A DNA stretch of 64,000 nucleotides from a virus. A program made the translations under genes and the position numbers. The notes beneath the pieces are model-generated. The model did not search any database and had not been told where the DNA came from. It saw only the letters and a list, made by a program, of their open reading frames with translations. Of this stretch, positions 2,917-33,290 are shown in pieces (position 1 is the stretch's first letter; each line of letters begins with the position of its first letter). The stretch lies in IMG/VR virus record IMGVR_UViG_3300008259_003217, positions 1 through 64,000 of that record; one strand, given 5' to 3'.

Positions 2917-2920
2917 ATCA

Positions 2921-4167: not shown

Positions 4168-4170
4168 ATC

Positions 4171-5685: not shown

Positions 5686-5686
5686 T

Positions 5687-6948: not shown

Positions 6949-6960
6949 AATATTAATTTT

Positions 6961-8277: not shown

Positions 8278-8279
8278 TA

Positions 8280-9494: not shown

Positions 9495-9550
9495 AATATT
9501 TTTTGTTCTTGTAAAAGTATACCAAGAAAAAACGAAAATATCAATGGTTA

Positions 9551-9583
9551 AAAACAAAAAACCCCAACCATTCGGTTGAGGTT
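9551..9583 (-). terminator. rho-independent terminator of the 12363-9608 operon
   Basis: Read on the minus strand, a 10-bp stem (AACCTCAACC pairing with GGTTGGGGTT, one G-U pair) closes a 4-nt loop and is followed by a T-rich tract (TTTTGTTTT). It lies 25 nt beyond the stop of the last gene of the preceding operon and separates it from the glycosyltransferase operon. Confidence 0.85.
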
Positions 9584-16416: not shown

Positions 16417-17862
16417 ATGGTCACAGACTCAATTAAGGAAAAATTAAAGTCTATATATAAATCAAACATTGATAAAGTTGGTGTTGGGTTCGGATTGAAA
16501 ATTAAAGATGGTCAATTAACAAATGAAAAATCATTTACGTTAATTGTTAAAGAAAAGAAACCTTTGAGTTCTTTATCTAGTGGTGAAGTATTCCCAAAAG
16601 AAATGACAGTTGATGGAGTTACTTACCCCACAGATGTTGTAGCTTTTTCAGAGGCGGAACCATACGCATTTTATTGTGCCGGACCAAACCCGGACCTAAG
16701 TCCAACTTGTTGGAACTGGACGATTACCCCACCAGCAAATAGGAACTATTTAAGGCCGTTACAAGGTGGTATTTCTTTAGGTCCTTCAAATATAGCTGGT
16801 TCTGGAACATTAGGTTTGATAGCTGTGGATGGAGAAACAGGTTGTTATGTTGGTTTAACTAATAACCACGTTGTAATAAACGACCCATTCTATACTGGTG
16901 ATAGACAATTAAATGGTGGTATTTCAAACGTAACTTACCCAAGTGGCGTGGGTTCCGCGATAAACGCTTATCAACCTGGGTTATCGGATCCATTTGTTGG
17001 TACCAACTTTGACAGGTCATTTGGGATTGTACTTAGGTATGTTCCTGTATTTAGTAATGTTTTTCCTGTTGATGGTATAAATATTTCAGATGCTGCAATT
17101 GTCAGTATCGATCAATTTGACGCACAAGGAAATCAAACTATAAGTACTTCAGGTCCGAACGCTTCTTGGAGACAGTTGGGTTTATCCTCAATAACAGCTC
17201 CTCAACCATTCGCTACCAACTTGGAAATAAATTCATTAACTCCAGCTGATTCGATTATAAGTGCTGGTAGAACTTCCGGAGGTAAAGAAGGTGTTTGTTC
17301 GCTACGAATACATCTACTGAGTGTGATTTACGAATACACCCAATCAATGCAGGGGTTACAAACCCCGATTATATATCAAGATTTGATGAGTTTTGCTAGA
17401 TATTCACCAACTGGTGAGTTATGTGCTTTTCCAGGTTTTAAAGGTGATTCTGGTTCAGCTATGTTCGCTCAATTTGGTGGTACTTGGAAAGTAATTGGTT
17501 TAATACAGGCTGGTAGTCCAAATAAACAACCACTATTAAATCCAAATACAACTTGGTATGTTAATAACACGATAAACCCAATCAATTATCCACCATTTGT
17601 TGGACCTATAGTTGGTTTTGGTCCAGCTTTAATTGGTAACGCTTCTTGGCCATATATGTTTGGTTGTAAAATAACTAACATAGCTTCACAATTAAATATT
17701 CAAGCTTGGGACGGGACACCTAAGTGTCATATAGATCCGAACCCACATACTGTAACAGCTTGTGGTAAAAGTTTTAACCCAACTGTAGTTTGTAGTGGTG
17801 ATACGTACTGGCAAGTAGGATTAACTAATGATCCTTCATTATTAAATCCATGTACCCCATAA
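16417..17862 (+). CDS. trypsin-like (S1-fold) serine protease
   Basis: 481 residues with a chymotrypsin-fold catalytic triad: His151 in VGLTNNHVVIND, a candidate Asp225 in NISDAAIVSID, and Ser345 in FPGFKGDSGSAMF (the GDSG oxyanion motif). The N-terminal 80 residues (DKVGVGFGLKIKDGQ, SFTLIVKEKKP, TYPTDVVAFSEA) match the prodomain-like leader of a group of bacterial trypsin-like proteins. There is no signal peptide, so if it acts outside the cell it is presumably carried on the virion. It lies between two IGGG-repeat fibre genes with gaps of 26 and 23 bases, suggesting co-expression; it may process the fibres, release them from receptors, or cut host surface proteins. Catalysis itself is inferred from motifs. 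Confidence 0.8.
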   Translation: MVTDSIKEKLKSIYKSNIDKVGVGFGLKIKDGQLTNEKSFTLIVKEKKPLSSLSSGEVFPKEMTVDGVTYPTDVVAFSEAEPYAFYCAGPNPDLSPTCWNWTITPPANRNYLRPLQGGISLGPSNIAGSGTLGLIAVDGETGCYVGLTNNHVVINDPFYTGDRQLNGGISNVTYPSGVGSAINAYQPGLSDPFVGTNFDRSFGIVLRYVPVFSNVFPVDGINISDAAIVSIDQFDAQGNQTISTSGPNASWRQLGLSSITAPQPFATNLEINSLTPADSIISAGRTSGGKEGVCSLRIHLLSVIYEYTQSMQGLQTPIIYQDLMSFARYSPTGELCAFPGFKGDSGSAMFAQFGGTWKVIGLIQAGSPNKQPLLNPNTTWYVNNTINPINYPPFVGPIVGFGPALIGNASWPYMFGCKITNIASQLNIQAWDGTPKCHIDPNPHTVTACGKSFNPTVVCSGDTYWQVGLTNDPSLLNPCTP

Positions 17863-20086: not shown

Positions 20087-20830
20087 ATGTTTGTATCAGT
20101 ATGTAATAAGGACTATCTAATTGGTTTTGAGGTAATGTTAAAATCATTAGTGGAAAACAATCCCAGGGTTGTTGATGAAAATATACCATTTATGGTGATC
20201 AGTAATGATTTAACTTCGGATGATCTGATAACCTCTAGGAAAATACATAATAATATTTCATTAAAAAATTATGACCAGTCAAAGTACGGTAATATTGACG
20301 AATTAAAATCAGACCAGACTGGGTTTGGTGATTACACAAAGTATGAGATATTTTCAATTAGTGATGTTGATAAAATAATATTTTTAGATTCAGATATTGT
20401 TGTTCTTGGTAATATCGATTACCTGATTGATTATTCACATTCGTTCGGGTGTGTCCGGGAATTATATATTGACCAATATAATACGGGTGTTATGGTTATC
20501 GACAAAAAATATTTGTCAGAAAAAATAACAAATGATTTAATTAATCTAACATTAATATATGGTATTACTGAACACTTTGATCAGGATATTATTAATTTGT
20601 ACTTTAGTGACGTAATTAGTACTATTCCAATCGAGTATAATTACTTAAAGACGTACTCTAAACAAATTTTCATAAATACAGGTCTACCAAAATATATTAA
20701 AATATTACATTTTATAGCTAAAAAACCTTGGCAAAATAAACCGTTAGTCTCACTTGAGGAAGGTACATTGTGGCAAGAAAGATATTGGTTTGATTATTAT
20801 TCTAAAATTTTAAAACTTAAAAATGGTTAA
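20087..20830 (+). CDS. GT8-like glycosyltransferase
   Basis: 247 residues with the GT8 pattern: MFVSVCNKDYLIGFEVMLKS at the start, KIIFLDSDIVVLGNIDYLID as the DxD donor/metal site (DSDIVVLG), QYNTGVMVIDKK (the N-G-V acceptor loop), HFDQDIINLYF, and ILHFIAKKPWQNKP (the H-x-x-x-x-K-P-W product-site motif). GT8 enzymes are retaining and use UDP-Glc, UDP-Gal or similar donors. It overlaps the following heptosyltransferase-like gene by eight bases, so the two are coupled. Confidence 0.88.
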   Translation: MFVSVCNKDYLIGFEVMLKSLVENNPRVVDENIPFMVISNDLTSDDLITSRKIHNNISLKNYDQSKYGNIDELKSDQTGFGDYTKYEIFSISDVDKIIFLDSDIVVLGNIDYLIDYSHSFGCVRELYIDQYNTGVMVIDKKYLSEKITNDLINLTLIYGITEHFDQDIINLYFSDVISTIPIEYNYLKTYSKQIFINTGLPKYIKILHFIAKKPWQNKPLVSLEEGTLWQERYWFDYYSKILKLKNG

Positions 20831-21734
20831 ACGACATTACGAAGAAGAGGAATTATTAAAGTACATACAGTTAGATCCAAATATTACAAATTTTAATGGT
20901 CGTACGTTACTACTTCATTTTGACTCATTTTGTTTGGGTGATACAATATGTTTTTCATCTTTCATTGATCCGTTTATTGAATACCACAAACCCAAAAAGA
21001 TTTACATATCAACCTTTTTTCCACATTTATTCCAATCTAAAGATGTTGATAGGTGTGAATTTATAAAAGCTAATAATCCGGTTTATATTGAGGTTGATAG
21101 ATTGTTGGACATTGGTTATGATAAAGGTAATTTAAAACATACCCTAAATGGTATGATGTACGCTACCAAAGATACCATGATGTTACCACAAGATACTAAA
21201 CCCGGAAAATGTCCGGTTATCCCATATAAAATTAACAAAAAAAATAATAAAATTTCAATCGCACCGGAATCATTAAAGAAAATAGCTAGGTGGGATTATG
21301 ATAATGGGTGGCAGGAAATTGTTAACAGATTGACCTCATCTGGGTATGAAGTGACAAATGTATCATATGAGAATACACTAAATCTTGAAGGTGTGACAAA
21401 TTGTAACGGTTTCGATGATATTACGGTGTCCTTAAACCACATACTCGAATCTAGGATTTTTATTGGGTTGTCCTCTGGTTTATCTTGGTTAGCTTGGGCG
21501 TATGACATACCGGTGGTTATGATATCTAACTTTACAAAAAAACAAAATGAATTTGATTGTTTTCGTGTGTTAAACCCAAATGTGTGTAATGGATGTTTTA
21601 ATATGTTTATGAACATTAAAACACATTGTCCGGTATTTTTGGGGACCGGTAGGGAAAATGAATGTCATTTAAAAATAACCCCAGATATGGTCTGGGAAAA
21701 AATAGAATTAGCTTTGTCGTTTACAAATAAATAA
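20823..21734 (+). CDS. TibC/BAHT-like protein O-heptosyltransferase homologue
   Basis: 303 residues. The C-terminal third reads FIGLSSGLSWLAWAYDIPVV, then ISNFTKKQNEFDCFRVLNPN, a four-cysteine set CNGC...HC...EC (C255, C258, C269, C281) and a terminal LKITPDMVW. This order (GL-SGLSWLAWA, pVV-IS-F, E-F, R-lNP, CxxC, CP, EC, IT) is the signature I associate with bacterial autotransporter heptosyltransferases (TibC/AAH, the BAHT family), in which four cysteines hold an iron atom and the enzyme O-heptosylates serines in beta-helix adhesin repeats. The N-terminal half is a divergent GT-B domain (LLLHFDSFCLGDTICFSSFI). It is shorter than TibC (about 400 residues). Immediate neighbours are a GT8 and a GT9-like gene, and repetitive beta-roll fibres lie upstream. 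Confidence 0.8.
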   Translation: MVKRHYEEEELLKYIQLDPNITNFNGRTLLLHFDSFCLGDTICFSSFIDPFIEYHKPKKIYISTFFPHLFQSKDVDRCEFIKANNPVYIEVDRLLDIGYDKGNLKHTLNGMMYATKDTMMLPQDTKPGKCPVIPYKINKKNNKISIAPESLKKIARWDYDNGWQEIVNRLTSSGYEVTNVSYENTLNLEGVTNCNGFDDITVSLNHILESRIFIGLSSGLSWLAWAYDIPVVMISNFTKKQNEFDCFRVLNPNVCNGCFNMFMNIKTHCPVFLGTGRENECHLKITPDMVWEKIELALSFTNK

Positions 21735-21753
21735 AACAGTTATATAATTTAGT

Positions 21754-22638
21754 ATGGAAAAAAAATATAGTTTATTTCACATTGAGGGTGGTTTGGGTAA
21801 GCACGTTCTAGCTACAGCGGTAGCCCAATGTATAAAAAATAATCACCCGGACAGAGAATTAATAATTGTTTGTGCTTACCCAGAAATATTTCTAAACTTA
21901 GATTTTGTTGATCGAGTATATAGACTTGGTATGACACCATATTTCTACGACGATTTTATTAATAATAAAGATACTATGGTATTTAAACATGAACCATATT
22001 TTACCGATGATCACATACACAAAAGATTACATTTATTGTTAAATTGGTGTAAACTACATAATTTAAAATATAATAACGAACAACCTGTTTTAAAATTCAA
22101 TATTAGACAATTACAAATAGCACATGGTAAATGGTTAAGAGAAAAACCGGTAATGGTTATTCAAACAAATGGTGGTCCGTTACAAGAACAACCACACACA
22201 TATTCATGGACTAGGGATATTCCATATGAAGTAGCTCAAAAAATTGTTGAGGTATTTTCCGAGAAATATCATATAATCCAAGTTTGTCGACATGAACACA
22301 ACTCTTTACCCAATGTTGAGGTTGTACATGAACCATTATCAAATATGGAATTATTTTCAATGTTATTAGCTTCAGAAAAAAGATTATTAATTGATTCATC
22401 ACTACAACACGCTTCGGCAGCTTTAGGTCTCCAGTCAACAGTTCTTTGGGTTGGGACATCTCCGGTTGTGTTTGGGTATGGGTTACACAAAAATATAGTG
22501 GCTACATTACCAAATACTGTTAAATTACCAGATAGTTATTTATTTGACTACGACTTCAATGGTACAACACATGAATGTCCTATGTTCGATAATAATATTT
22601 TTAATTTGGATGAGATTGTCGAGTCCTTACAAAATTAG
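21754..22638 (+). CDS. GT9-like (ADP-heptosyltransferase-fold) glycosyltransferase
   Basis: 294 residues. FHIEGGLGKHVLATAVAQCI is the opening glycine loop of GT9-like GT-B enzymes. PVMVIQTNGGP opens the C-terminal Rossmann domain, and LLIDSSLQHASAALGLQSTV corresponds to the D-S-x-x-x-H-x-A-A-A-L-x donor site of heptosyltransferase-fold enzymes. VLWVGTSPVVFGY follows it. Third gene of the block 20087-22638, 19 bases after the BAHT-like gene. A heptose or hexose donor is plausible. Confidence 0.75.
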   Translation: MEKKYSLFHIEGGLGKHVLATAVAQCIKNNHPDRELIIVCAYPEIFLNLDFVDRVYRLGMTPYFYDDFINNKDTMVFKHEPYFTDDHIHKRLHLLLNWCKLHNLKYNNEQPVLKFNIRQLQIAHGKWLREKPVMVIQTNGGPLQEQPHTYSWTRDIPYEVAQKIVEVFSEKYHIIQVCRHEHNSLPNVEVVHEPLSNMELFSMLLASEKRLLIDSSLQHASAALGLQSTVLWVGTSPVVFGYGLHKNIVATLPNTVKLPDSYLFDYDFNGTTHECPMFDNNIFNLDEIVESLQN

Positions 22639-22669
22639 AATTAGAAAAGAAAATTACTAAACCTGGGGG

Positions 22670-22676
22670 TATTTAT
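22670..22676 (+). promoter_or_regulatory. TATTTAT motif, 11 nt before ATG
   Basis: GTATTTAT ending 11 nt before the ATG at 22688. Here the surrounding bases could also fold (GGTAT at 22668-22672 with ATACC at 22683-22687), which would place the start codon at the foot of a weak hairpin. Confidence 0.45.
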
Positions 22677-22687
22677 GGTTATATACC

Positions 22688-23644
22688 ATGAGTCAAAGTA
22701 TAACCATAGATAGTATAAATTTTGACGGTGAATTAGCTACCGTTATTTTTAAACCGGATAATGATAATGTTGTCATTAATCTAGGTCAAGTTACGTTACC
22801 GTTTATTTTTTTCCCGGACTTATTAGTACCACCAAGGGAAGTGTACGGTGTCTATACGATACTAGTTGAGAATGGGGATTGTCCGAATATATTAAATGTT
22901 CCAAGACCTACCCCCACACCAACACCAACTGTGACTCCGACAAGGACACAAACACCTACACCAACACCAACTGTAACACCAACACCAACATTTGATCCTT
23001 GTAAGGTACCAACCCCAACACCAACGAACACACCAACGAATACCGTTACCCCAACTGTAACACCAACACCAACTGAAACTTGTACAAGTCCTTGTGGATG
23101 TCCACATCCAAGTAATACACCAACCCCAACAAAAACACCAACACCCACACCAACATATCAAATATGTAAATCAACACCTACACCTACACCAACAGTTACT
23201 CCAACAAACACAGTTACTCCAACAAATACTATGACACCTACCCCTACCAATACTACCACACCAACGAATACACCAACACCAACACCTAGTAGTTCACCGG
23301 AACCAGACTTACCAGGAATTTATTTTGGTAAATTTAGTGGTTCGTCAATAACTAGTGGGGACTCTTCACTTCTTACTTTCGAGTATACAAATGACCCAAC
23401 AGATGATTATGTTACATTTACGAGTAGTGTTACACCATACTGGGGATACATTTTAATACCGATATCGTTACCACAACCAACAGGATTTAGAAATAGTACG
23501 ATTGGTTGTAATGGATTTAACATACCAACAAACAATATAGGTACAATAATTATAGTAGATGGAAATGGATTCCAGATAAATTACAATGTCTACAGAACCT
23601 TTAATGACTTCTTGGGTACTGTTGATTGTTGGTTATGTAGTTAA
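22688..23644 (+). CDS. mucin-like Thr/Pro-repeat virion protein
   Basis: 318 residues. Residues 1-70 are a compact beta domain ([20 protein letters not shown]). Residues 72-205 are almost pure [12 protein letters not shown]-type sequence interrupted by short Cys-containing islands ([27 protein letters not shown]). Residues 210-318 form a second domain ([33 protein letters not shown]). Thr-Pro alternation gives an extended stiff linker and is the classical acceptor context for mucin-type O-glycosylation. It lies directly after the glycosyltransferase block, 49 bases from the GT9-like gene. Confidence 0.8.
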
Positions 23645-23652
23645 AAAATATT

Positions 23653-25560
23653 ATGCCAAGTTTTAGTTTTTCAGGTGGGGTTGAGGTTCTGGGATTTATT
23701 TCCCCCACGGATACAAATGATACATACCCAGTAATTGACCCATTGTATGGTATTGACGGTTTACGAAATGTTAATACTATAACCGAATTAAACTCAATAA
23801 CAAATCAAAGGAGACGACCTGGGATGGTTGTTGGTGTGAATGACGGTTCAATATATTACAAATTAAATTCGCCACCATGGAATGGATCATTAAGTGATTG
23901 GTCAATATTCCAAAGTGGGGGTGGTGGTGGTACCTTTACTGGGGGTACAATAAGTGGGGATACAATATTCACACAGGGAGTTACAGCTACAACATTAAAT
24001 GTTAACGGTGTGAGTATTACTGGTGATACATATACTACGGGTGGAACTTATTCATCTGGTATTTTAAATTTTTATTATAATACTGGTGGTGGGTATCAAA
24101 TTAGTGGATTAGACACAACTAATACATATATTACAGGATTTACATATGATAATATAAATACATTTAGTATTGATGATAACTCTGGAAATACATTTTCATC
24201 ATCTATAAACGTATTATCAGCGACAACAATAAGTGGTGGAACATTTTACGGGGACGGATCTAATTTAACCAATACACCAGATAAATATATAACGGATTTA
24301 TCATTTAACAATTCAAATTATAATTTAACGGTAACAAGAAACGATTTGTGGAGTGATACAGTTAGTTTATCAATATTATCTAGTGATATGACTATAACTG
24401 GTGGTACATATAATTCTGGTAGTGGTGTCGCGACATTTACAAATAATTCAGGTGGGACATTTAATGTTTCTGGTTTTTTAGTTGGGTATACTGATCACTA
24501 TGTAACCGGGTATACATATGATGACTCAAATACTTTTAACATCTATGATAATTCTGGGAATACTTTTTCAGCGTCAATAAACACGATGACCGGTTTAACG
24601 GTAAATGGGACTTTATCCGCGACAACATATTTGAATTTACCGGTAACTACAGATACAAACTTTGCAAATACCGATTTAACATTTACTGGTTATAGGGTTC
24701 ACGATTTGGATGGTTACGGGGTGTATTTGTCAACTGATGGTACATCCTATAGTGAAGGTTATTTAGGTATTGATACCTCATCTGTTTCTTTGGGAATGTT
24801 AACACCTAGCGGATCCTCAATCATATATCAAACCGTAAATCCAACAACACCTGGTATTATCGAATACTCAGCGGGTGAGGAGATTAGAAAACACACAATA
24901 ACAGAATCAATATTTTATGTTTATCAAGACCGTAATTTTGTTATTAGAGATGATAACGATAATCATGATTTTCTAACGGTTGATGGTTTACAAGATGAGG
25001 TTAATATTAAGGGAAATTTTAATGTTAGTGGGAACACAATAATGTCTGGAAGTTCTCAGAATGTATTAACAATTATTGGTTCCGGGAATACATCGTCACC
25101 ACCAATTTTTAGTGTTCAAGGATCTAACGGAGAATTATTTAGTGTAAATGATAGTCTAATCGGATCGTTGTTTAGTGTAAATGATATTTCCGGAATACCA
25201 ATATTTGAGGTGTTTTCAGATAACACAATACTAATGGGTTCATACCTTGCCCCATCATTAAATACAACGGTTAGGGTTTTACCACCTGTGGGTACTACAA
25301 ACGTATACTCTTTACCATTGAGTGCGTATACCGGAGCTTGGTTTGAGTATACTGTTAAAAGTACTACCGGAGCTAGGTCAGGACAAATAATGTCAATCTT
25401 TAGTGGTACAACCGTTAACATTACTGAAACTACAACCACTAGTATAGGTGTTACGACACCAATAACATTTAACATGATTTCTAACGGTACTAACGCTACT
25501 CTTAGAGTATCTGTTATTTCCGGTACCTGGGAGGTTAGAGTTATAATAAGAAGTATTTAA
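23653..25560 (+). CDS. tail-fibre protein with repeated GGTY beta modules
   Basis: 635 residues. An N-terminal attachment-like region (residues 1-90) contains INDGSIYYKL-like text typical of fibre bases (MVVGVNDGSIYYKLNSP). The middle carries repeated segments GGTYSSGILNFYYNTG, ITGGTYNSGSGVATFTNNSG and YVTGYTYDDSNTFNIYDNSG, each a beta hairpin pair; the same modules occur at 17886 and 33957. The C-terminus (about 535-635, TTVRVLPPVGTTNVYSLPL and WFEYTVKSTTGARSG) is a compact beta domain. Codon use and position match the other fibres. Likely a distal adhesin. Confidence 0.78.
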   Translation: MPSFSFSGGVEVLGFISPTDTNDTYPVIDPLYGIDGLRNVNTITELNSITNQRRRPGMVVGVNDGSIYYKLNSPPWNGSLSDWSIFQSGGGGGTFTGGTISGDTIFTQGVTATTLNVNGVSITGDTYTTGGTYSSGILNFYYNTGGGYQISGLDTTNTYITGFTYDNINTFSIDDNSGNTFSSSINVLSATTISGGTFYGDGSNLTNTPDKYITDLSFNNSNYNLTVTRNDLWSDTVSLSILSSDMTITGGTYNSGSGVATFTNNSGGTFNVSGFLVGYTDHYVTGYTYDDSNTFNIYDNSGNTFSASINTMTGLTVNGTLSATTYLNLPVTTDTNFANTDLTFTGYRVHDLDGYGVYLSTDGTSYSEGYLGIDTSSVSLGMLTPSGSSIIYQTVNPTTPGIIEYSAGEEIRKHTITESIFYVYQDRNFVIRDDNDNHDFLTVDGLQDEVNIKGNFNVSGNTIMSGSSQNVLTIIGSGNTSSPPIFSVQGSNGELFSVNDSLIGSLFSVNDISGIPIFEVFSDNTILMGSYLAPSLNTTVRVLPPVGTTNVYSLPLSAYTGAWFEYTVKSTTGARSGQIMSIFSGTTVNITETTTTSIGVTTPITFNMISNGTNATLRVSVISGTWEVRVIIRSI

Positions 25561-25561
25561 G

Positions 25562-26020
25562 ATGAGTTATCATTTTTTCCCAAATATAGTTACGGATGGT
25601 TTGGTGTTTCATATAGACGCACAAAATTCTAAATCGTACAATAATATAGGTACCGAAGCTTATTCACTTGTAAAACGTGAAAATGGGTCAAACTTTAGAA
25701 GATTAACAATTCAAAGTGGGGTGACAATTCAGTCAATGAATGATATTAGTTATTTTTTTTTAAATGGAGTAAACTATCTATCGTCGACTGGTTTCGGAAC
25801 CCCAATGGTTAACATACCCCCAAACATAACTTACGCTAGTTGGTTTAGTCATGATAGAAGTTTATCTCAAGGTAGTGTGTTATTTTTACCTGGTACCGGA
25901 GCGTCAATTAATAGAACTTGGTTATACCCATTTGGTAATAGTATTAATTTTGCACTAACAGATATTTTCCAAATGAATTTAATTATGTGGTGGCTACATG
26001 TCAATTGGAGCCTAGTTTAA
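25562..26020 (+). CDS. LamG-like virion protein, N-terminal part (frame broken)
   Basis: 152 residues, opening with IVTDGLVFHIDAQNSKSYN, a very typical start of concanavalin/LamG-like phage surface proteins (GLV-x-x-DA-x-N). The natural fold should continue with a YINGNL strand, but this frame runs into MWWLHVNWSLV and stops at 26020. The missing half is encoded in the overlapping ORF 25987-26259. Joining them requires a one-base shift near 25966-25971 (GATATTTTCCAAATG), after which the text becomes NEFNYVVATCQ. An indel in a short T run, a true mutation or recoding are all possible. Confidence 0.7.
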   Translation: MSYHFFPNIVTDGLVFHIDAQNSKSYNNIGTEAYSLVKRENGSNFRRLTIQSGVTIQSMNDISYFFLNGVNYLSSTGFGTPMVNIPPNITYASWFSHDRSLSQGSVLFLPGTGASINRTWLYPFGNSINFALTDIFQMNLIMWWLHVNWSLV

Positions 26021-26259
26021 CAGCCAGTACTTTATCGATATATATCAATGGTAATTTAGTAAGACAACTAACAAATCAAGGTAGAGTTTCAGGTAGACCA
26101 TCTGGACCAAATGAACCAGATATTGGTAGGGGTTCTAGTGCTGGTAGTACTAGATTTAACGGAAAAATAGCTACAGCTTCAATATATAATAAATGTTTAA
26201 GTTTAGACGAAATAAGACAAAACTATAATACTTTAAAAGGTAGATTTAATCATAATTAA
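25987..26259 (+). CDS. LamG-like virion protein, C-terminal part
   Basis: 90 residues in a different frame from the preceding ORF; its only start in that stretch is a GTG at 25987. STLSIYINGNLVRQL, then FNGKIATASIYNKCLSLDEI and RQNYNTLKGRF are the hallmark C-terminal strands and helix of LamG/concanavalin-like domains. The reading frame remains coding-like upstream of the GTG (PNEFNYVVATC), which supports that it is the tail of the gene at 25562 and not an independent gene. Confidence 0.7.
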   Translation: MVATCQLEPSLTASTLSIYINGNLVRQLTNQGRVSGRPSGPNEPDIGRGSSAGSTRFNGKIATASIYNKCLSLDEIRQNYNTLKGRFNHN

Positions 26260-26260
26260 A

Positions 26261-26557
26261 ATGGCACATCAAGTAATAATTTCTGGAACAACGGGTACGT
26301 CACCTTACGAAATACAAGTTTGTGATATAACAAACACATATTGTTATTTGGTATCTAGTGGTGAGACAATACCCCCAGCATATATTTTTTATGTACCACC
26401 GCCATTAGATGTTGTTGAATCATTTTTATTAAAAATAATAGATTCGAATGGGTGTGAGAGATTTGAATTGTTAACTTGTCCGGTGGAAAATAAAATGTTT
26501 GAGGACGGTATTTTCTTTTTATTCGAGGATGGGGTTGAGTATATTTTTGAGGGATAG
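26261..26557 (+). CDS. small beta-rich virion-associated protein
   Basis: 98 residues: MAHQVIISGTTGTSPYEIQV, then CDITNTYCYLVSSGETIPPA and LLKIIDSNGCERFELLTCP. It reads as an Ig-like or small beta sandwich with paired cysteines, and the DSNGCE-F pattern recurs in small proteins beside phage fibre genes as far as I recall. No enzymatic motif. It begins one base after the LamG C-terminal ORF and precedes the beta-helix fibre gene. Confidence 0.65.
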   Translation: MAHQVIISGTTGTSPYEIQVCDITNTYCYLVSSGETIPPAYIFYVPPPLDVVESFLLKIIDSNGCERFELLTCPVENKMFEDGIFFLFEDGVEYIFEG

Positions 26558-26569
26558 ATATTTATTGGT

Positions 26570-28036
26570 ATGCCACAACAAAGACTTACAGATAGAACCT
26601 TAGCTCCTTACGTTGATAAGGATACTTTAATTCATATTGTTAACACTGGGGACACCATACAATATAGTGGTGGATCCTCATATAAAACAACTTTAGAGAA
26701 TTTAATTCCAATATTTTCTGGTAATTCAGGTTCTTTTGTTACCGGTGGTACGTATAACAACACCACAGGAACGTTAACATTAATTAATAGTACCGGTGGT
26801 ACAAATTCAATCACAGGGTTTACAACTGGTGGTACTTCGACAAGTTATGGAATATTTGGTATATCCGATAGTTTAGGTGAATACACATACTATTCAACGT
26901 TACAATCAGCTATAAACGCTGCTTCATCCGGTGATGTGATACAAATGTTTGCTAACGTTACTGAATCTTCACCTGTTACCGTAATTTTAAAGGATGGTGT
27001 TGATTTAAATATGAATGGGTACACATACACTCTAGACAGAAACTCCACAGACCATTGTTTAACTGATAATAATCTTACGGTTAATTGTAAAATATATAAT
27101 GGTAATATTGTTAGAAGTAATGTGTCATACGTTAATGATACAACATCACTTTGTCTATATGTTCAAAATACTAATACCGTAATTGAAACTGTGGGTGTTT
27201 ATTTCATATCACCAGCGACAACCGGAATAAATAATAACGGTACGGTTAGAGGGTCTTTAGTTGAATCCTACACTAGGGGGGTTGTTAATAGTGGCAAACT
27301 ATATTCATTAAATGTTATAGCTACACTTGAAACTGCGATATATTGTAACTCGATTACTTCCGAGGTTTACGATTGTATTGGTAGATCAAACGGTTTAGGT
27401 TTTGGTATTGGTATGTTGATGCCGTCATTTGCTGGGTCAATAACAAATTCAGTCGGGTACTCCCTCGGAAACGCTGGAATATATGCCGCTAACGTAAATA
27501 GAATACAGTCTTGTGTTGGTTATAGTACAGCAAGTGATGGAATGGCCATCCTCAACTCAATAGCTCAAGACTGTAAGGGTTATTCAAGTGGTGGTATCGG
27601 TATGGATTTGGAGAACGTGTATTTGGGTACGAATATGTTGGGGTATTCATACACATTTCTTGGTGTTAATGTTTCAGTACCAACTAATGGTGTGAATTCC
27701 AAATTAGAAAATTTAACATCTAGTTCAGCCACCAACTATAGTTGTGGGTTAAGTGCTTTAGGTACCGCGTCATTGGTGGTTAAAAATTTACAATCAACCT
27801 CATTATTGTCTGGTGGATCCGGATACGCTTGTACTGTAAGTGGGAATAATAATATAAAAATAATGGGTGGTTCATTAGACGTTTGGAACTCGGCTGAGTG
27901 TTTAACGTCAAGTCTACCAATAACGGTAGCTTTTGTTAATTTGTCATTTAAAACATCAGCGACCCCACCAGTGAATACCAACATATCACAGGGAAGTTTG
28001 GGCCTTATAGATAGTTATGGAAATATAAAAGTTTAA
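26570..28036 (+). CDS. pectate-lyase-fold right-handed beta-helix tail protein
   Basis: 488 residues. N-terminal 60 residues (LTDRTLAPYVDKDTLIHIVN, SYKTTLENLIPIF) are a short attachment module similar to those at 33303 and 33957, followed by GGTYNNTTGTLTLINSTGG. From residue 110, YYSTLQSAINAASSGDVIQM and LKDGVDLNMNGYTYTLD are the standard start of pectate-lyase-like beta-helices (periplasmic copper/PL type). The helix body has about 22-residue coils (SEVYDCIGRSNGLG, GSITNSVGYSLGNAGI, AQDCKGYSSGGIGM). Such folds are typical of tailspikes with glycan depolymerase activity; no catalytic residues can be assigned by eye. Confidence 0.8.
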   Translation: MPQQRLTDRTLAPYVDKDTLIHIVNTGDTIQYSGGSSYKTTLENLIPIFSGNSGSFVTGGTYNNTTGTLTLINSTGGTNSITGFTTGGTSTSYGIFGISDSLGEYTYYSTLQSAINAASSGDVIQMFANVTESSPVTVILKDGVDLNMNGYTYTLDRNSTDHCLTDNNLTVNCKIYNGNIVRSNVSYVNDTTSLCLYVQNTNTVIETVGVYFISPATTGINNNGTVRGSLVESYTRGVVNSGKLYSLNVIATLETAIYCNSITSEVYDCIGRSNGLGFGIGMLMPSFAGSITNSVGYSLGNAGIYAANVNRIQSCVGYSTASDGMAILNSIAQDCKGYSSGGIGMDLENVYLGTNMLGYSYTFLGVNVSVPTNGVNSKLENLTSSSATNYSCGLSALGTASLVVKNLQSTSLLSGGSGYACTVSGNNNIKIMGGSLDVWNSAECLTSSLPITVAFVNLSFKTSATPPVNTNISQGSLGLIDSYGNIKV

Positions 28037-28048
28037 TAATATTACACA

Positions 28049-28228
28049 ATGAAAGATTTACAACAAATAGTGGTTCAATTAACAAATAGTCCTGATGTTA
28101 GATCAATACTACAGTATGGTAATGATTTTTTACCTGAATCACAAACCTTAGTTAAATACGACGATTTAAATCAAGACGAAAAGGATATTTGGGATAATTT
28201 TATACTAATGTTAAAAACTAAAGTATAG
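28049..28228 (+). CDS. small hypothetical protein
   Basis: 59 residues beginning MKDLQQIVVQLTNSPDVRSI and ending DIWDNFILMLKTKV. It has two predicted helices joined by a loop (NDFLPESQTL), acidic and soluble. It starts 12 nt after the beta-helix gene and its stop lies in the hairpin at 28215-28231. Codon use matches its neighbours. Similar tiny helical proteins often sit beside phage tail-fibre genes; function unknown. Confidence 0.65.
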   Translation: MKDLQQIVVQLTNSPDVRSILQYGNDFLPESQTLVKYDDLNQDEKDIWDNFILMLKTKV

Positions 28229-28241
28229 TTTATTTTTTTTT
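28215..28241 (+). terminator. possible AT-rich terminator
   Basis: AAACTA (28215-28220) pairs with TAGTTT (28226-28231) around AAGTA, followed by A and nine T residues. The stem is short and AT-only, so termination may be partial. It sits before the second glycosyltransferase block. Confidence 0.45.
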
Positions 28242-28270
28242 GTTTCATGATATATTTTAAATAAAAAATC

Positions 28271-29518
28271 ATGAAGATATTCATTCAAATCGCTTCATAT
28301 AGGGATCCACAATTAGTCCCGACAATAGAAGACGCTATTAGTAAATCAAAACATCCTAAAAATTTAGTATTTGGTATCGCTCGTCAATACCACCCAGAAG
28401 ATAAATTTGATGATCTTTCATCTTATGAAGAAGATAAAAGATTTAGAGTTCTAAATATTCCACACGAGGAATCTAAAGGTGTTTGTTGGGCTCGTAATCA
28501 AGTACAACAACTGTACGGTGGTGAGGAATATACACTACAGATTGATTCACACATGAGATTTGATCAAGACTGGGATCAAACATTAATAGATATGTTATCT
28601 GATCTACAGGATAAGGGATATAAAAAACCCCTATTAACCGGATATGTATCATCTTTCGATCCAGAAAACGATCCAGATGGTCGGGTTGTTGACCCTTGGA
28701 GGATGGTTTTTGATCGGTTCACCCCAGAGGGTTGTGTTTTCTTTTTACCGGAGACAATTCCTGGGTGGAAAGATTTAACCGAACCGATAACATCTAGATT
28801 TTACTCAGCTCATTTTTGTTTTACTCTTGGTCAATTTAGTGTTGAGGTACAACACGACCCGGAATATTACTTTCATGGTGAGGAAATTTCTATAGCTGTT
28901 AGAGCTTATACACACGGTTATGATTTGTTTCATCCCCATAAAACTGTTATTTGGCACGAATACACCAGAAAAGGTAGAACAAAACAATGGGACGATGATA
29001 AAGTTTGGTACTTAAAAAATGAATCTTCACACAAAAAAAACAGGGAGGTATTAGGTGTGGATGGTGAAGTATATAACGGTGACCTTGGTAAATATGGTTT
29101 TGGTACCGAAAGAACAATTAAGGATTATGAAAAATATTCCGGTGTTTTATTCTCTAAAAGAGCTGTACAAAAATACACCATAGATAAGAAATACCCACCA
29201 AATCCATACGACTTTGAAACCGAAGAGGATTGGGTTGAGAGTTTTTCATCAATTTTTAAACACTGTATTGATGTATCCTTTTTACAGGTACCGGAAAACG
29301 ATTACGAATATTGGGTGGTTGCTTTTCACGATAAAACAGATGAAACAATCTATAGACAAGACGCTAGTACAGATGAGATAAAAATGATGATGACTGATCC
29401 AGACGGATATTGTAAAATATGGAGACAATTTAACACTAAAGAAAAACCGGCTTATTGGGTTGTTTGGCCATACTCAAAATCAAAAGGTTGGTGTGATCGT
29501 ATAACAGGAAATTTATAA
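28271..29518 (+). CDS. GT60-like polypeptide N-acetylglucosaminyltransferase homologue
   Basis: 415 residues. MKIFIQIASYRDPQLVPTIE, then HPKNLVFGIARQYHP, GVCWARNQVQQLYGGEEYTL and QIDSHMRFDQDWDQTLIDML reproduce in order the motifs of the GlcNAc domain family (Skp1 hydroxyproline GlcNAc-transferase, GT60), including the DSH metal site. Downstream SAHFCFTLGQF, YYFHGEEISIAVRAYTHGYD (GEE-x-x-x-A-R) and VIWHEY complete the GT-A core. The characterised eukaryotic member modifies hydroxyproline in Skp1, and the family is related to mucin-type GalNAc-transferases. The C-terminal 120 residues are an extra domain (YWVVAFHDKTDETI). Given the Thr/Pro-repeat virion proteins on both sides, peptide glycosylation is a reasonable hypothesis, not shown here. 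Confidence 0.88.
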   Translation: MKIFIQIASYRDPQLVPTIEDAISKSKHPKNLVFGIARQYHPEDKFDDLSSYEEDKRFRVLNIPHEESKGVCWARNQVQQLYGGEEYTLQIDSHMRFDQDWDQTLIDMLSDLQDKGYKKPLLTGYVSSFDPENDPDGRVVDPWRMVFDRFTPEGCVFFLPETIPGWKDLTEPITSRFYSAHFCFTLGQFSVEVQHDPEYYFHGEEISIAVRAYTHGYDLFHPHKTVIWHEYTRKGRTKQWDDDKVWYLKNESSHKKNREVLGVDGEVYNGDLGKYGFGTERTIKDYEKYSGVLFSKRAVQKYTIDKKYPPNPYDFETEEDWVESFSSIFKHCIDVSFLQVPENDYEYWVVAFHDKTDETIYRQDASTDEIKMMMTDPDGYCKIWRQFNTKEKPAYWVVWPYSKSKGWCDRITGNL

Positions 29519-29523
29519 TAAAT

Positions 29524-30369
29524 ATGAAAACATTAATTTACACGTCAATATACTCAAATTTATGGGGAACTGAATTTGGTGGTAGACCGTCGAGACATTA
29601 TCACTACAGATCTTCATTAAAAAATATTTTAAACTTAGAAGCTAATAAATTTATTTGTTTTGTACCGCAAGAAGAGTTGAATGATTTAAAAAATCATTTT
29701 TATAATAACTGGGGTGTTTCACCAGAAAAACTTGAGTTTATTGTTTTTGATTTACATGACACTAAATATTTTAATCAGATTAGATCTTTAAAAGATTTAG
29801 AACTTATGAAGACTATTGACCGATGTTTTGAAGTTCAGTATAATAAATTTTTTTGGTACGATATGTTAGAGAATAAAAACCAATATGATAGAATATATTG
29901 GTTTGACGCTGGACTATCACATAGTGGGTTATTCCCCGAAAATTTAGCTTACGGTACTGGTTATGATAGGTATTACTCATTCACATCATTTAATAGTGGA
30001 TTTTTAAATAAACTTAATGATATGTCAGATGAAAAATTTATTTTGGTTGGGAAGAATAATACCGGTAGATTTTTCTGGTCACAAACCTTACCAACCAAGT
30101 ATTATATAGATTACCAAAGGGATCACCATGTTATAGGTGGATTTTTTGGTGGGAAACCTGAATTATTTTCAAACTTTAGGGATCAATTTGAGAACTTACT
30201 GGTTGAGTTACTCAATAGTGAGAAGGAGTTATATATGGAAGAACAAATACTATCTTGTTTATTTTATAACAATAATAACGGTATTAATTTAATTTCTTTT
30301 GATGACTGGTATAGAAGACCTGAACACACTGACGATAGTATAAAATATTTTTACAATATATTTGATTAA
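29524..30369 (+). CDS. HtrL/WlaTC-like glycosyltransferase
   Basis: 281 residues related to the N-terminal half of the next gene. LIYTSIYSNLWGTEFGGRPS opens it, DRIYWFDAGLSHSGLFP contains the W-F/I-DAG acidic site, and HHVIGGFFGGKPELFSNF corresponds to the GGFFGG loop. These match HtrL/YibB (WlaTC) glycosyltransferases, a GT-A-like family in LPS and capsule loci. The stop overlaps the start of the next gene by one base, so the pair is co-translated. Substrate unknown. Confidence 0.75.
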   Translation: MKTLIYTSIYSNLWGTEFGGRPSRHYHYRSSLKNILNLEANKFICFVPQEELNDLKNHFYNNWGVSPEKLEFIVFDLHDTKYFNQIRSLKDLELMKTIDRCFEVQYNKFFWYDMLENKNQYDRIYWFDAGLSHSGLFPENLAYGTGYDRYYSFTSFNSGFLNKLNDMSDEKFILVGKNNTGRFFWSQTLPTKYYIDYQRDHHVIGGFFGGKPELFSNFRDQFENLLVELLNSEKELYMEEQILSCLFYNNNNGINLISFDDWYRRPEHTDDSIKYFYNIFD

Positions 30370-32045
30370 TGAAAACAACTTTAGTTACTGGATTGTGGGA
30401 TATTGGTCGTGGTGATATGTCTGAAGGATGGTCCAGGTCATTTGATTATTATTTAGAAAAATTCACGGAATTATTAACCATTGATTGTAATCTTATAATT
30501 TTTGGTGATGAAAATTTAATGGAGTTTGTTTTCAAACATAGATCCAGGGAAAACACCCAATTTGTTTTAAGAGACCTTACTTGGTTTAAAAACAATGAAT
30601 ACTATGATAAAATCCAAACGATTAGAAACAACCCCGATTGGTATAATCAAGTCGGATGGTTATCTGATTCGACACAAGCTAAGTTGGAGATGTATAATCC
30701 ATTAGTAATGTCTAAAATGTTTTTATTACATGACGCAAAAATTTTAGACAGATTTGATTCAGATAAATTATTTTGGATTGACGCTGGTATAACAAATACC
30801 ATTCATTTAGGTTATTTTACAAAGGATTTAGTTTTATCTAAAATAGATAGTGAATTAAGTAAATTTAATTTTATATGTTTCCCATATGAAACTAACTCGG
30901 AAATACACGGATTTACATTTAGTAAAATGTGTGAGATGACAAATGATAACCCTAATATTGTGGCTAGAGGTGGATTTTTTGGTGGGGATAAGGAGTTGAT
31001 AACAGAACTAAATACATTATATTATAATATTTTAACTCAAACATTGAGTGAGGGGTTCATGGGTACTGAGGAAAGTTTATTTACTATATTGTTATACCAT
31101 AACCCGGATGTGATAAACTATTACGAGATTGAGGGTAATGGTTTATTATATAAATTTTTTGAAGATGTTAAAAACAATAATTTAGTTTTAAAAACAAAGA
31201 ACAAAAAAGAACCAAATGACTATTCTAATGATAATGGTTCTGTGGGTTTATATGTCATCACTTTTAATTCACCAAAACAATTCGAAACCTTGATTGAGTC
31301 CATACTGGAGTATGACTCTGATTTTATTTTTAGTACTAAAAAATTTCTACTTAATAACTCGACCGATCTAACGACTACGGATGAATATGTTAGGTTATGT
31401 GAAATGTATGGTTTTGAACATATAAAAAAAGATAACATCGGAATTACTGGTGGTAGACAGTTTATATCTGAACATTTTAATGACCAAGAAGATCTATCCT
31501 TTTACTATTTCTTTGAGGATGATATGTTTTTTTATAATGGTGTTGATCAAACATGTAAAAACGGGTTTAACAGAAAAGTTAAAAACTTATTTAAAAAATC
31601 ATTATTAATTCTAAAAAAAGAGGGGTTTGATTTTTTAAAATTAAACTTTACCGAATTTTTTGGGAGTCACGATAAACAATGGTCTTGGTATAATGTACCA
31701 CAACATTTTAGAGAAAGTCATTGGCCTAACAACAGATCACTGCCTTTAATTGGACTGGACCCAAACTCACCTGATTTAGAATTTAAACACATAAAATCGT
31801 ATGGTGGTATTCCATATGTATCTGGGGAGATATACCTATCAAATTGGCCTATTCTAATGTCAAAAGTGGGTAATTATAAGTGTTACTTAAAAACAAAATT
31901 TAAACATCCTTACGAACAGACATTAATGTCTAATTGCTATCAAGAAACAATTAAGGGAAATATTAAACCTGGATTGTTGTTGTTAACACCAACAGAACAC
32001 AATCGATTTGATTTTTATGATGGAAATTTAAGAAAAGAATGTTAA
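30369..32045 (+). CDS. HtrL/YibB-like domain fused to a GT2-like domain
   Basis: 558 residues. Residues 1-265 are a clear HtrL/YibB-like domain: TTLVTGLWDIGRGDMSEGWS, LLTIDCNLIIFGDENLMEF, KLFWIDAGITNTIHLG and ARGGFFGGDKELITEL. Residues 285-558 form a second GT-A domain: VGLYVITFNSPKQFETLIES, NSTDLTTTDEYVRLCEMYGF and SFYYFFEDDMFFYNGVD (EDD donor site), ending with EQTLMSNCYQETI. Such bifunctional transferases occur in large aquatic phages as far as I recall. It is the last gene of the second glycosyltransferase block, 27 bases before a Thr/Pro-repeat virion gene. Confidence 0.85.
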   Translation: MKTTLVTGLWDIGRGDMSEGWSRSFDYYLEKFTELLTIDCNLIIFGDENLMEFVFKHRSRENTQFVLRDLTWFKNNEYYDKIQTIRNNPDWYNQVGWLSDSTQAKLEMYNPLVMSKMFLLHDAKILDRFDSDKLFWIDAGITNTIHLGYFTKDLVLSKIDSELSKFNFICFPYETNSEIHGFTFSKMCEMTNDNPNIVARGGFFGGDKELITELNTLYYNILTQTLSEGFMGTEESLFTILLYHNPDVINYYEIEGNGLLYKFFEDVKNNNLVLKTKNKKEPNDYSNDNGSVGLYVITFNSPKQFETLIESILEYDSDFIFSTKKFLLNNSTDLTTTDEYVRLCEMYGFEHIKKDNIGITGGRQFISEHFNDQEDLSFYYFFEDDMFFYNGVDQTCKNGFNRKVKNLFKKSLLILKKEGFDFLKLNFTEFFGSHDKQWSWYNVPQHFRESHWPNNRSLPLIGLDPNSPDLEFKHIKSYGGIPYVSGEIYLSNWPILMSKVGNYKCYLKTKFKHPYEQTLMSNCYQETIKGNIKPGLLLLTPTEHNRFDFYDGNLRKEC

Positions 32046-32051
32046 TTAATA

Positions 32052-32058
32052 TATTTAT
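32052..32058 (+). promoter_or_regulatory. TATTTAT motif, 14 nt before ATG
   Basis: ATATTTAT then ATTAAAAACATTAA and the ATG at 32073. It lies 6 nt after the stop of the upstream glycosyltransferase gene. Confidence 0.45.
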
Positions 32059-32072
32059 ATTAAAAACATTAA

Positions 32073-33290
32073 ATGGAGTTTTTCATTAAAAAAAATGCCA
32101 CACTACCGGTTTTAAAATTACAAGTAGTGAAGGATGGTCGTAGTGATTACAATAAGATGATGGATCTTATTGAGGAATCGTCCATTTTCTTCTCTATGAT
32201 TGATACTGAAAATGGGATACCAAAGTTAGTAACTAGACCAGCTGGGTTTGTAAATAAAATAATGTTAGACCCAAACGCTAGTCCAGAATATTATGTGTAT
32301 TACCAGTTCACAAATAAAGACACAAATCGTGTTGGTAGGTATGAAGGACAATTTTTATTAAAAACAAATGAGGGTAATTTAATATTACCAATCAGGGAAA
32401 AATTATATATAACAGTTCAGGATAGTTTTATCTCTGACGATTTGATGTACGACTCATGTTATGTTTCGGAATTTCCTTGTTGTGTACCGTCTAACCCGGT
32501 GATAACAACGACAACAACTCAATTTTGTTTTATAAACCCCGAAACACCAACGGAATTGACATTGGTGGTTACGGTATTACCCGGGTCGGTAAACATAACG
32601 TATAATCTATTTTCTAATAAACCCGTAATTATCGATACCACATTAAATTTTACACACAATTTAGGTGTATTTAGTGGTTTACCAATAACAATAACTACCG
32701 GTGTTACCATATCACAGGGTAGTAATTTTGGTTCTACAGTAATTAACCTGGGTGAGGATTACTCTAATTTAACTCGTGTGGATCAATTTACAGATGTGAC
32801 TACGGACCCGTCAAATTTAAATTGGCAAATTGAGGAAATATTTCCAATATCACCTACACCAACAAATACACCTACCGTAACACCAACTGTAACGCCAACA
32901 AATACACCAACTGTAACGCCAACAAATACACCAACTGTAACACCAACTGTAACACCAACTGTAACACCAACTGTAACACCAACAAATACCATAACACCAA
33001 CTGTAACACCAACTGTAACACCAACAAATACTATAACACCAACTGTAACACCAACAAATACACCTACCGTAACACCAACAAATACACCTACCGTAACACC
33101 AACAAATACTATAACACCAACTGTAACACCAACTGTAACACCTACCGTAACACCAACAAATACTATAACACCAACCCCAACTGTAACCCCAACATCCACA
33201 TATTATATTATCGATCCAATTATAGTTGGCAGTGATACGTATCTAAATGTGGGTTTAAACAATTACTTAAAATATAATAACCCAATATAA
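32073..33290 (+). CDS. mucin-like VTPTNTPT-repeat virion protein
   Basis: 405 residues. Residues 1-140 form a folded N-terminal domain ([40 protein letters not shown]), which resembles a virion attachment module. Residues 150-258 ([20 protein letters not shown]) are a beta domain. Residues 260-373 are over 100 residues of [12 protein letters not shown] repeats, and the end ([20 protein letters not shown]) is a short capping strand pair. The repeat is encoded by near-identical DNA (32852-33196), so its length should vary by recombination. It follows the HtrL-like glycosyltransferases, and its Thr density makes it a candidate acceptor. Confidence 0.8.
32852..33196 (+). repeat. tandem DNA repeat encoding VTPTNTPT units
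   Basis: Alternating units ACACCAACTGTA and ACACCAACAAATAC (roughly 12 and 18 nt higher-order mixture) repeat for about 345 nt with only scattered synonymous changes (CCTACCGTAA, ACTATAACACC). The near-identity at DNA level, beyond what protein repetition needs, suggests recent expansion. Confidence 0.9.

Follow-up and report, generated by a model that had tools for sequence, protein, structure and literature searches.

A probable virion O-glycosylation locus built around a GT60 glycosyltransferase in a T4-like phage

Glycosylation of phage virions has already been reported for mycobacteriophages and for phage XacN1, according to a literature search, and in the 2023 work of Freeman et al. the virion proteins of mycobacteriophages reportedly carry glycans. 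In the large aquatic phage lineage termed moraphage, four core transferases are described in the excerpts available to us (PMC12619734). A well-described relative of the central enzyme discussed here is TcOGNT1 of Trypanosoma cruzi, a GT60 enzyme which is described in excerpts of two papers as a polypeptide transferase forming N-acetylglucosamine (GlcNAc)-alpha-Thr on mucins rich in Thr, and the peptide KPPTTTTTTTTKPP serves as a substrate of the T. cruzi activity (PMC9472816, PMC3769586). Another enzyme used for comparison is TibC, which acts on proteins and whose residue roles are taken from the consulted parts of eLife 03714 (PMC4358343). Here, we describe a locus of six glycosyltransferase genes, one of them GT60, in the virus record IMGVR_UViG_3300008259_003217; the window is the whole stretch analysed, positions 1 to 64,000 of that record (64,000 nucleotides). 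Judging from its genes and from related loci, the island is probably a virion O-glycosylation locus.

The window belongs to a 159,868-base virus record (GC 33%), whose phage is a T4-like myovirus as judged by its tail sheath and family B DNA polymerase. A first-pass annotation had proposed an island of glycosyltransferases interleaved with repetitive fibre proteins, and all open reading frames (ORFs) it named were found in their places. The order on the plus strand is IGGG fibre A, a protease-like protein, fibre B, GT8, the TibC-like enzyme, the GT9-like enzyme and the Thr/Pro-repeat protein TP1, followed by F2, three small ORFs, F3, GT60, HtrL1, HtrL2 and the second Thr/Pro-repeat protein TP2, and then by a 205-aa protein, IGGG fibre C and the DNA polymerase (Table 1). 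The locus of six enzymes and repeat proteins is real, whereas some of the family labels are weak or unconfirmed. As proposed, a Thr/Pro protein follows each transferase block within 50 nt on the plus strand, with gaps of 49 nt (22638 to 22688) and 27 nt (32045 to 32073).

The GT60 label was borne out by a score of 231.7 bits against PF11397 (cut-off 21; E-value in Table 1), and the motifs DSH-RF and WHEYTR are invariant across 14 aligned phage GT60 members. The acidic/His motif DSH-RF presumably has a metal-binding role. Sequence and profile searches of the PDB with GT60, HtrL2, the GT9-like enzyme and the TP2 anchor domain returned no useful match. The phage enzyme and TcOGNT belong to the same family (by Pfam match for the former and CAZy GT60 for the latter), and the excerpts on the parasite enzyme likewise describe a Thr-rich acceptor, with Pro in the test peptide, and a first sugar that is extended in a strain-specific manner (PMC3769586, PMC9472816). 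In contrast to TcOGNT, a eukaryotic Golgi enzyme acting on surface mucins, the phage enzyme is paired with presumed virion proteins, and its donor and acceptor are predicted. In Dictyostelium, hydroxyproline of Skp1 serves as the acceptor of a GT60-type enzyme. A hydroxyproline acceptor is not supported here: the prolyl-hydroxylase family PF13640 was not found in the record, which may be incomplete.

The linkage of GT60 to Pro-Thr repeats recurs across several phage lineages, bacteria and type VI secretion system (T6SS) clusters. In phages, codons for TPTPTPTP were searched for in 50 records, 43 of which were hand-picked from 80 GT60 loci and seven found via Thr/Pro. This strict motif occurs in 31 of the 43 GT60-selected records, as opposed to 0/50 control records with Glu-Pro (EP) repeats, which are the longer ones among 80 listed and differ from the GT60 records in lineage and length, and 1/35 T4-like control records, which are at least 15 kb long, were identified through the sheath of Microcystis phage Mel-JY01 without PF11397 and represent 35 of 80 fetched loci. 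When only records of up to 80 kb are considered, the motif is found in 15/24 GT60-selected records versus 0/33 controls (P 6e-8). Conversely, scans for Thr/Pro and EP repeats gave at least 119 and at least 120 stretches, respectively, and PF11397 was detected in five records when those of the first 50 Thr/Pro stretches were searched, versus 0/50 EP and 0/35 T4-like controls (P 0.006 against both controls).

The association extends to cultured phages. XacN1 and RAS14 encode GT60 proteins that are 47.6% and 43.5% identical to the window enzyme, and in both phages a giant gene (3313 aa and 3138 aa, respectively) lies at most about 5 kb away from GT60, HtrL1 and HtrL2. Thr/Pro repeats are found at the end of the RAS14 protein and within the last 230 residues of the XacN1 protein, whose gene is preceded by two annotated baseplate wedge genes. 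A carbamoyltransferase is annotated in the XacN1 cassette, and RAS14 contains a 766-aa look-alike. At least two glycoproteins of XacN1 are reported in the available part of the source (PMC5852040). In a further record (G045), the GT60 gene, whose product is 39% identical to that of the window, and the polymerase locus are separated by about 57 kb, and even so GT60 is flanked on both sides by Thr/Pro genes at distances of up to 3 kb.

Among bacteria, the best 80 of 228 GT60 loci in GTDB genomes were collected, and 50 of the genomes (L556-L605) were searched for the strict motif. While 34/50 genomes contain a strict site anywhere, eight carry one within the GT60 locus, compared with 0.9 expected (P 5e-6, every match being taken as independent). 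In five genomes (G204, G209, G213, G226, and G247), every strict site lies inside the GT60 locus (3/3, 1/1, 14/14, 3/3, and 43/43, respectively). A looser rule found a Thr/Pro-rich ORF in 12 of the 80 loci. In the isolate Jiulongibacter (L562) and a Saprospiraceae metagenome-assembled genome (MAG; L556), the Thr/Pro gene and GT60 are divergently oriented, and an HtrL gene comes after GT60. The two Thr/Pro proteins begin with what we take to be a twin-arginine-like stretch, which would suit modification before export.

In Burkholderiales, GT60 is located in T6SS clusters, together with gp25 and TssG (L600) or TssF and ImpA_N (L588) in the two loci scanned; VgrG is encoded on the opposite strand in both and an RHS gene in L600. 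Across the 80 bacterial loci, an RHS homologue is present in 16 and VgrG in 12. All 12 GT60-linked VgrGs end in repeats of Pro and Ser/Thr by eye and 10/12 by a composition rule that was set after the tails had been seen. By contrast, this rule selects none of 31 further VgrGs encoded in these 12 genomes (Fisher P 3e-8; 2e-5 with the first 13 only). These controls comprise 13 of 18 first fetched, four completed and 14 added sequences; they exclude two sequences truncated by the end of their contig as well as a 352-aa fragment and duplicates, and not every weak match piece is included. No GT60 was found in the 20-kb stretch surrounding the closest paralogue without a tail (64% identical, from the same genome). 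Repeat units differ from tail to tail (TP, EEPPPS, PTEPP, DEEPAAS, EPSDEQP, ETPDETPD, STPEP and similar) and have been replaced with Pro and Ser/Thr retained. Alternatively, GT60 might be an effector secreted by these clusters.

A number of observations weigh against Pro-Thr repeats as the substrate of GT60. The strict motif is missing from 12 of the 43 GT60-selected phage records, the PF11397 enrichment has a P of 0.056 against the first control alone, and the phage records share ancestry and are compared with controls of different lineage. Many TP2 homologues have no Thr/Pro repeats, yet GT60 and HtrL2 are retained upstream, and the nearest Thr/Pro genes in G123 and G118 lie more than 50 kb from GT60. 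Among bacteria, 42/50 GT60 loci are without the strict motif, as are the other 30 when the loci are searched; the MAG loci L566 and L593, with near-identical proteins, may be phage contigs, and the 12 GT60-linked VgrGs are orthologous rather than 12 independent events. Moreover, 45 of the 50 Thr/Pro records, many of them short, are without GT60, and neither partner thus depends on the other. The absence of GT60 from most Thr/Pro records would be expected if Thr/Pro stretches were unglycosylated linkers common in such tail proteins and the association with GT60 a lineage effect, and some TP2 homologues indeed continue with further sequence past the Thr/Pro stretch. Such an explanation is countered by the recurrence of the association in XacN1 and RAS14, in G045 and in bacterial genomes, and by a tail which, among the VgrGs read in Burkholderiales genomes, is confined to the GT60-linked VgrG, and we therefore regard it as quite improbable. 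Since the linkage of GT60 to Thr/Pro goes beyond lineage and is found in bacteria and in T6SS VgrGs, O-glycosylation of virion proteins is favored for this enzyme, and the comparison supports such a role over one in modifying the host envelope. The distances in G123 and G118, the repeat-less TP2 homologues and the records or loci lacking a partner indicate that adjacency is not required; Thr/Pro acceptors thus need not adjoin GT60, which may have further acceptors.

GT60 also marks one end of a conserved gene arrangement. In phages, the best 80 of 136 relatives were used as GT60 loci and formed 47 clusters at 95% identity. HtrL2 lies downstream of GT60 on the same strand in 43/47 of these dereplicated clusters, and the gene-order pattern is therefore beyond chance; in 40/47, the TP2 anchor domain is also present within four genes after HtrL2. 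Within the lineage there is little contrast: of the 39 polymerase-anchored loci whose upstream sequence extends for at least 8.4 kb, 28 have GT60 in that part (near-duplicates included). The number of genes between GT60 and HtrL2 is zero (8 loci), one (10), two (11) or three (6), with larger intervals of four, six, seven and nine genes in two loci each. Across 167 loci, the interval encodes 129 distinct proteins in 38 groups, the largest of which (51) is HtrL1-like. The 38 representatives match families of GT10, GT2, GT7, FkbM and other methyltransferases, carbamoyltransferases, nucleotidyltransferases and epimerases. By our own comparison, GT60-HtrL2 is an O-antigen-like variable cassette with fixed ends and changing contents. 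The variable tailoring interval sets the window phage apart from mycobacteriophage virion glycosylation, as do the predicted sites in Pro-Thr repeats of baseplate and fibre proteins, in contrast to glycans on the C-termini of capsid and tail-tube proteins as described in excerpts (PMC12619734).

Both HtrL-like assignments held up. HtrL2 (558 aa) matches HtrL_YibB (PF09612) over residues 2-256 with 73.7 bits (cut-off 24.1), 15/15 of its homologues also hit this family, and HtrL1 (281 aa), which has no HtrL Pfam match, aligns to the HtrL domain by hhalign (Table 1). The proposed fusion of an HtrL protein to GT2 was not recovered, as a GT2 family is absent from the 15 HtrL2 proteins examined; weak hints there point to TAGT (0.0027, one member) and DUF1972 (0.0055, two members).

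The candidate acceptors TP1 and TP2 have pronounced Thr/Pro stretches, with most Thr in the repeat part of TP1 (Table 1) and 53/59 Thr in TP2 adjoining Pro; the TP2 repeat lies at about residues 259-375. In TP2 homologues, about 120 N-terminal residues are conserved, and the C-terminal part is missing, consists of Thr/Pro repeats or is replaced by other sequence. An AlphaFold model of the conserved domain (16 sequences, pLDDT 81.1) matched BppU-named and other baseplate or tail proteins in BFVD with modest scores; in the PDB, the NF5 baseplate and entry 4v96 are among the matches and antibody domains score best. Entry 4v96 is, as we take it, the TP901-1 baseplate. Query-normalised TM scores are 0.62 or less, except for one uncharacterised phage protein (0.76). 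The domain may resemble BppU-type baseplate proteins, whose anchor has an immunoglobulin-like fold, in predicted fold and in its matches to BppU-named proteins and two phage baseplate entries; it is set apart by its modest scores and by the antibody domains that come first in the PDB. Further Thr/Pro-rich proteins are encoded at 96089-103251 and 152183-158661 of the window's record (G000), and the one at 101380-103251 resembles, by eye, the Thr/Pro protein adjoining GT60 in G045. Two TP2 homologues (L049 19177-20313 and L043 13156-14220) have a C-terminal part that ends in an IKNSWG stretch. This stretch is presumably papain-like, suggesting a peptidase on the TP2 anchor domain.

The second transferase block presents a less uniform picture. 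The GT8 assignment stands, the protein clearing the Pfam cut-off (Table 1). The TibC-like enzyme, proposed to resemble the Aah/TibC O-heptosyltransferases (BAHT), does match TIGR04414 (5.8e-33), albeit with 114 bits instead of the 200 of the equivalog cut-off. It aligns to the TibC crystal sequence over residues 144-288 (1.9e-16), and the 21 best PDB matches of its AlphaFold model (11 sequences, mean pLDDT 78.5) are TibC chains with TM 0.66-0.75, whereas WaaF, WaaC and a Veillonella GT9 rank behind with 0.58 or less. Shared with TibC/Aah are the catalytic-domain fold, the four iron-finger Cys (Cys 255, 258, 269, and 281) and an LGD match that places TibC Asp110, the catalytic residue, at Asp40, which is invariant among the aligned sequences, although the local alignment is weak. 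Of the sugar-site residues, Trp305 alone is kept; Thr226 and Lys230 are replaced by Leu151 and Ala155, and Arg286 falls in a gap. Phe265 and Val266, considered in connection with the beta-hairpin thumb and dodecamer of the family, align to Gly190 and Val191. Unlike TibC/Aah, the 303-aa protein has no N-terminal beta-barrel (model positions 1-78 are unmatched), scores under the cut-off and has a phage repeat fibre as its presumed acceptor. Because of the missing barrel and the lost Thr226 and Lys230 equivalents, the enzyme is, as far as sequence and model suggest, a variant or relative of the autotransporter heptosyltransferases and not a family member. A fuller TibC domain (STAQxKYW and four Cys) is found within 736-1497-aa proteins of six sibling loci, and one phage protein (L024 3457-6375, minus strand) joins GT4-type, TibC/Aah (281 bits, above cut-off) and FkbM methyltransferase domains. 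A TibC scan with a single protein retrieved six viral loci only, and distant BAHT-like genes were found by profile within the collected loci. The GT9-like label is weakly placed: the enzyme itself has no Pfam match, and GT9 (PF01075) is matched at E 0.05 or better by two of six orthologues (best 4e-4).

All three IGGG proteins are present; with regard to their proposed beta-roll nature, the sole Pfam match, LbR_Ice_bind in fibre B, falls below its threshold at 26.4 bits (cut-off 30). An IGGG fibre is found in 5/7 loci with the TibC-like enzyme versus 1/24 without it (Fisher P 7e-4; five loci with both, two with the enzyme only, one with the fibre only and 23 with neither), based on the 31 cluster representatives in which at least 9 kb precede GT60 and treating related loci as independent. 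The two enzyme-only loci are L002, with a cut fibre under the motif count, and L040, cut upstream; those with neither include L033, whose cut TibC-like enzyme scored under the limit. Glycosylation of the IGGG fibre by the TibC-like enzyme thus has moderate support from gene co-occurrence, weaker than in the case of GT60. The idea that the phage glycosylates its own repeat proteins fares unevenly: comparison supports it strongly in the case of GT60 and moderately in that of the TibC-like enzyme. The GT8, GT9 and HtrL families also occur in envelope pathways, and the remaining enzymes of the six may or may not act on proteins. Between fibres A and B, the protease-like protein (16417-17862) matches phrog_20754 (7.3e-13), and its homologues directly precede GT60 in L067-L070.

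Alternatively, the transferases might serve superinfection exclusion or release by remodeling the host envelope, that is lipopolysaccharide (LPS) or capsule, and adjoin fibres as co-swapped host-range genes. The GT8 and HtrL families are known from LPS pathways as well, and HtrL/YibB from the waa region of E. coli. In addition, the sole NCBIfam match of GT8 is an LPS galactosyltransferase model, far under the cut-off, the contents of the variable interval resemble O-antigen genes, and a second glycan block with GT2, methyltransferase and sugar-modifying genes lies at about 1586-9557 (minus strand). However, the association of GT60 with Pro-Thr repeat proteins extends over phages, bacteria and T6SS clusters, and the TibC-like model is closest to a protein heptosyltransferase (TM 0.75) rather than to WaaC, WaaF or other GT9 enzymes, so that remodeling of the envelope appears unlikely. 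Phage transferases are also known to glycosylate DNA, as stated in the excerpts consulted (PMC12619734), and a dUTPase gene is present. Hypermodification of the phage DNA is nevertheless highly improbable, as no DNA glucosyltransferase family is among the matches of the six enzymes, characterised GT60 and TibC enzymes act on proteins, and gene order links the transferases to tail proteins.

If the locus indeed serves virion O-glycosylation, GT60 would add an N-acetylhexosamine (HexNAc), most likely alpha-GlcNAc, to Thr/Ser within the Pro-Thr repeats that baseplate and fibre proteins carry, acting in the cytoplasm of the host while virions are being assembled. Its substrates in trans would comprise TP1 and TP2 as well as the proteins at 96-103 and 152-159 kb of the record. 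The HtrL proteins and variable genes (transferases, methyl- and carbamoyltransferases, and sugar-nucleotide enzymes) would then extend and cap the first sugar, giving rise to strain-specific glycans as with O-antigen loci. TP2 and its homologues may attach to the baseplate through the BppU-like domain, where the glycosylated Pro-Thr stretch would form a stiff, protease-resistant stalk or a sugar brush on the virion. The second module (GT8, TibC-like, and GT9-like) might glycosylate Ser/Thr of the neighboring IGGG fibre, similar to TibC/Aah on AIDA-type adhesins. We infer the activity, the identity of the sugar, the acceptor residues, the location of TP2 on the virion and the benefit, which may consist of shielding, solubility or surface binding.

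The chances seem evenly balanced that, more broadly, contractile-injection machines share a general mucin-type O-glycosylation system with GT60 at its core, in which a cytosolic HexNAc-transferase coats Pro-Thr/Ser stalks on phage baseplates and T6SS VgrG tails and a hypervariable tailoring interval in phages leads to serotype-like virion glycans. Phages would then possess an exchangeable glycan locus for producing a mucin-like coat of their own. The resulting virion "serotype" could determine how they adhere, withstand proteases or are recognised by antibodies and grazers. The GT60 family would also modify T6SS spikes, a step in building an antibacterial weapon, and GT60 could become a bacterial tool for producing proteins with Thr-linked GlcNAc. 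Among titles and abstract openings of the open-access literature, no report connected the glycosylation of virions or VgrGs with GT60 or Thr/Pro repeats, or virion glycosylation with the variable interval or T6SS spikes.

Table 1. Coordinates of the features discussed (window positions, except for the last row).
Feature	Coordinates	Strand	Evidence or remark
IGGG-repeat fibre A, 546 aa	14750..16390	+	10 motif copies; no Pfam family at E 0.01
IGGG-like repeat fibre B, 702 aa	17886..19994	+	directly upstream of GT8-TibC-GT9 module; sub-threshold LbR_Ice_bind
GT8 glycosyltransferase	20087..20830	+	PF01501 1.1e-21
TibC/Aah-like O-heptosyltransferase variant without N-terminal barrel (predicted)	20823..21734	+	TIGR04414, TibC PDB match, AlphaFold model
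"GT9-like" enzyme, weakly placed	21754..22638	+	phrog_8954 7.7e-5; PF01075 in 2/6 orthologues
TP1, Thr/Pro-repeat (mucin-like) protein	22688..23644	+	46/54 Thr adjoin Pro in repeat part
F2, Ser/Thr/Gly-rich fibre-like protein	23653..25560	+	homologues in relatives
F3, Ser/Thr/Asn-rich fibre-like protein	26570..28036	+	no Pfam family
GT60 (PF11397), polypeptide GlcNAc-transferase family; left constant cassette gene	28271..29518	+	PF11397 2.3e-68; phrog_24687 4.6e-162
HtrL-like enzyme 1 (HtrL1), inside interval variable among relatives	29524..30369	+	hhalign to HtrL domain of HtrL2, probability 99
HtrL2, HtrL/YibB-domain protein with C-terminal domain; right constant cassette gene	30369..32045	+	PF09612 2.3e-20
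TP2, BppU-like N-terminal anchor domain (about residues 1-120) and Thr/Pro repeat	32073..33290	+	AlphaFold pLDDT 81
IGGG-repeat fibre C, 908 aa	33957..36683	+	13 motif copies
DNA polymerase B, neutral synteny anchor	36771..39728	+	PF00136 1.7e-12
Burkholderiales T6SS + GT60 + VgrG loci	L600 9279-15564; L606, L587, L617 and eight others		

Within the second glycan block (1586-9557, minus strand), a 504-aa GT2-type protein with two GT2 matches and a GT2/GT92-like protein are encoded along with two methyltransferases, a hexapeptide acyltransferase and a short DegT-type protein (209 aa) that covers just model positions 24-98; a weak, sub-cut-off match of GT1/GT4 type lies at 8280-9557. Downstream of the polymerase, the 365-aa protein at 41206-42303 (minus strand) contains an Fe/Mn superoxide dismutase (SOD) domain at residues 167-357. 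An HEWVH stretch in its N-terminal part, which we take to be a metallopeptidase motif, suggests that it is possibly a metallopeptidase-SOD fusion.

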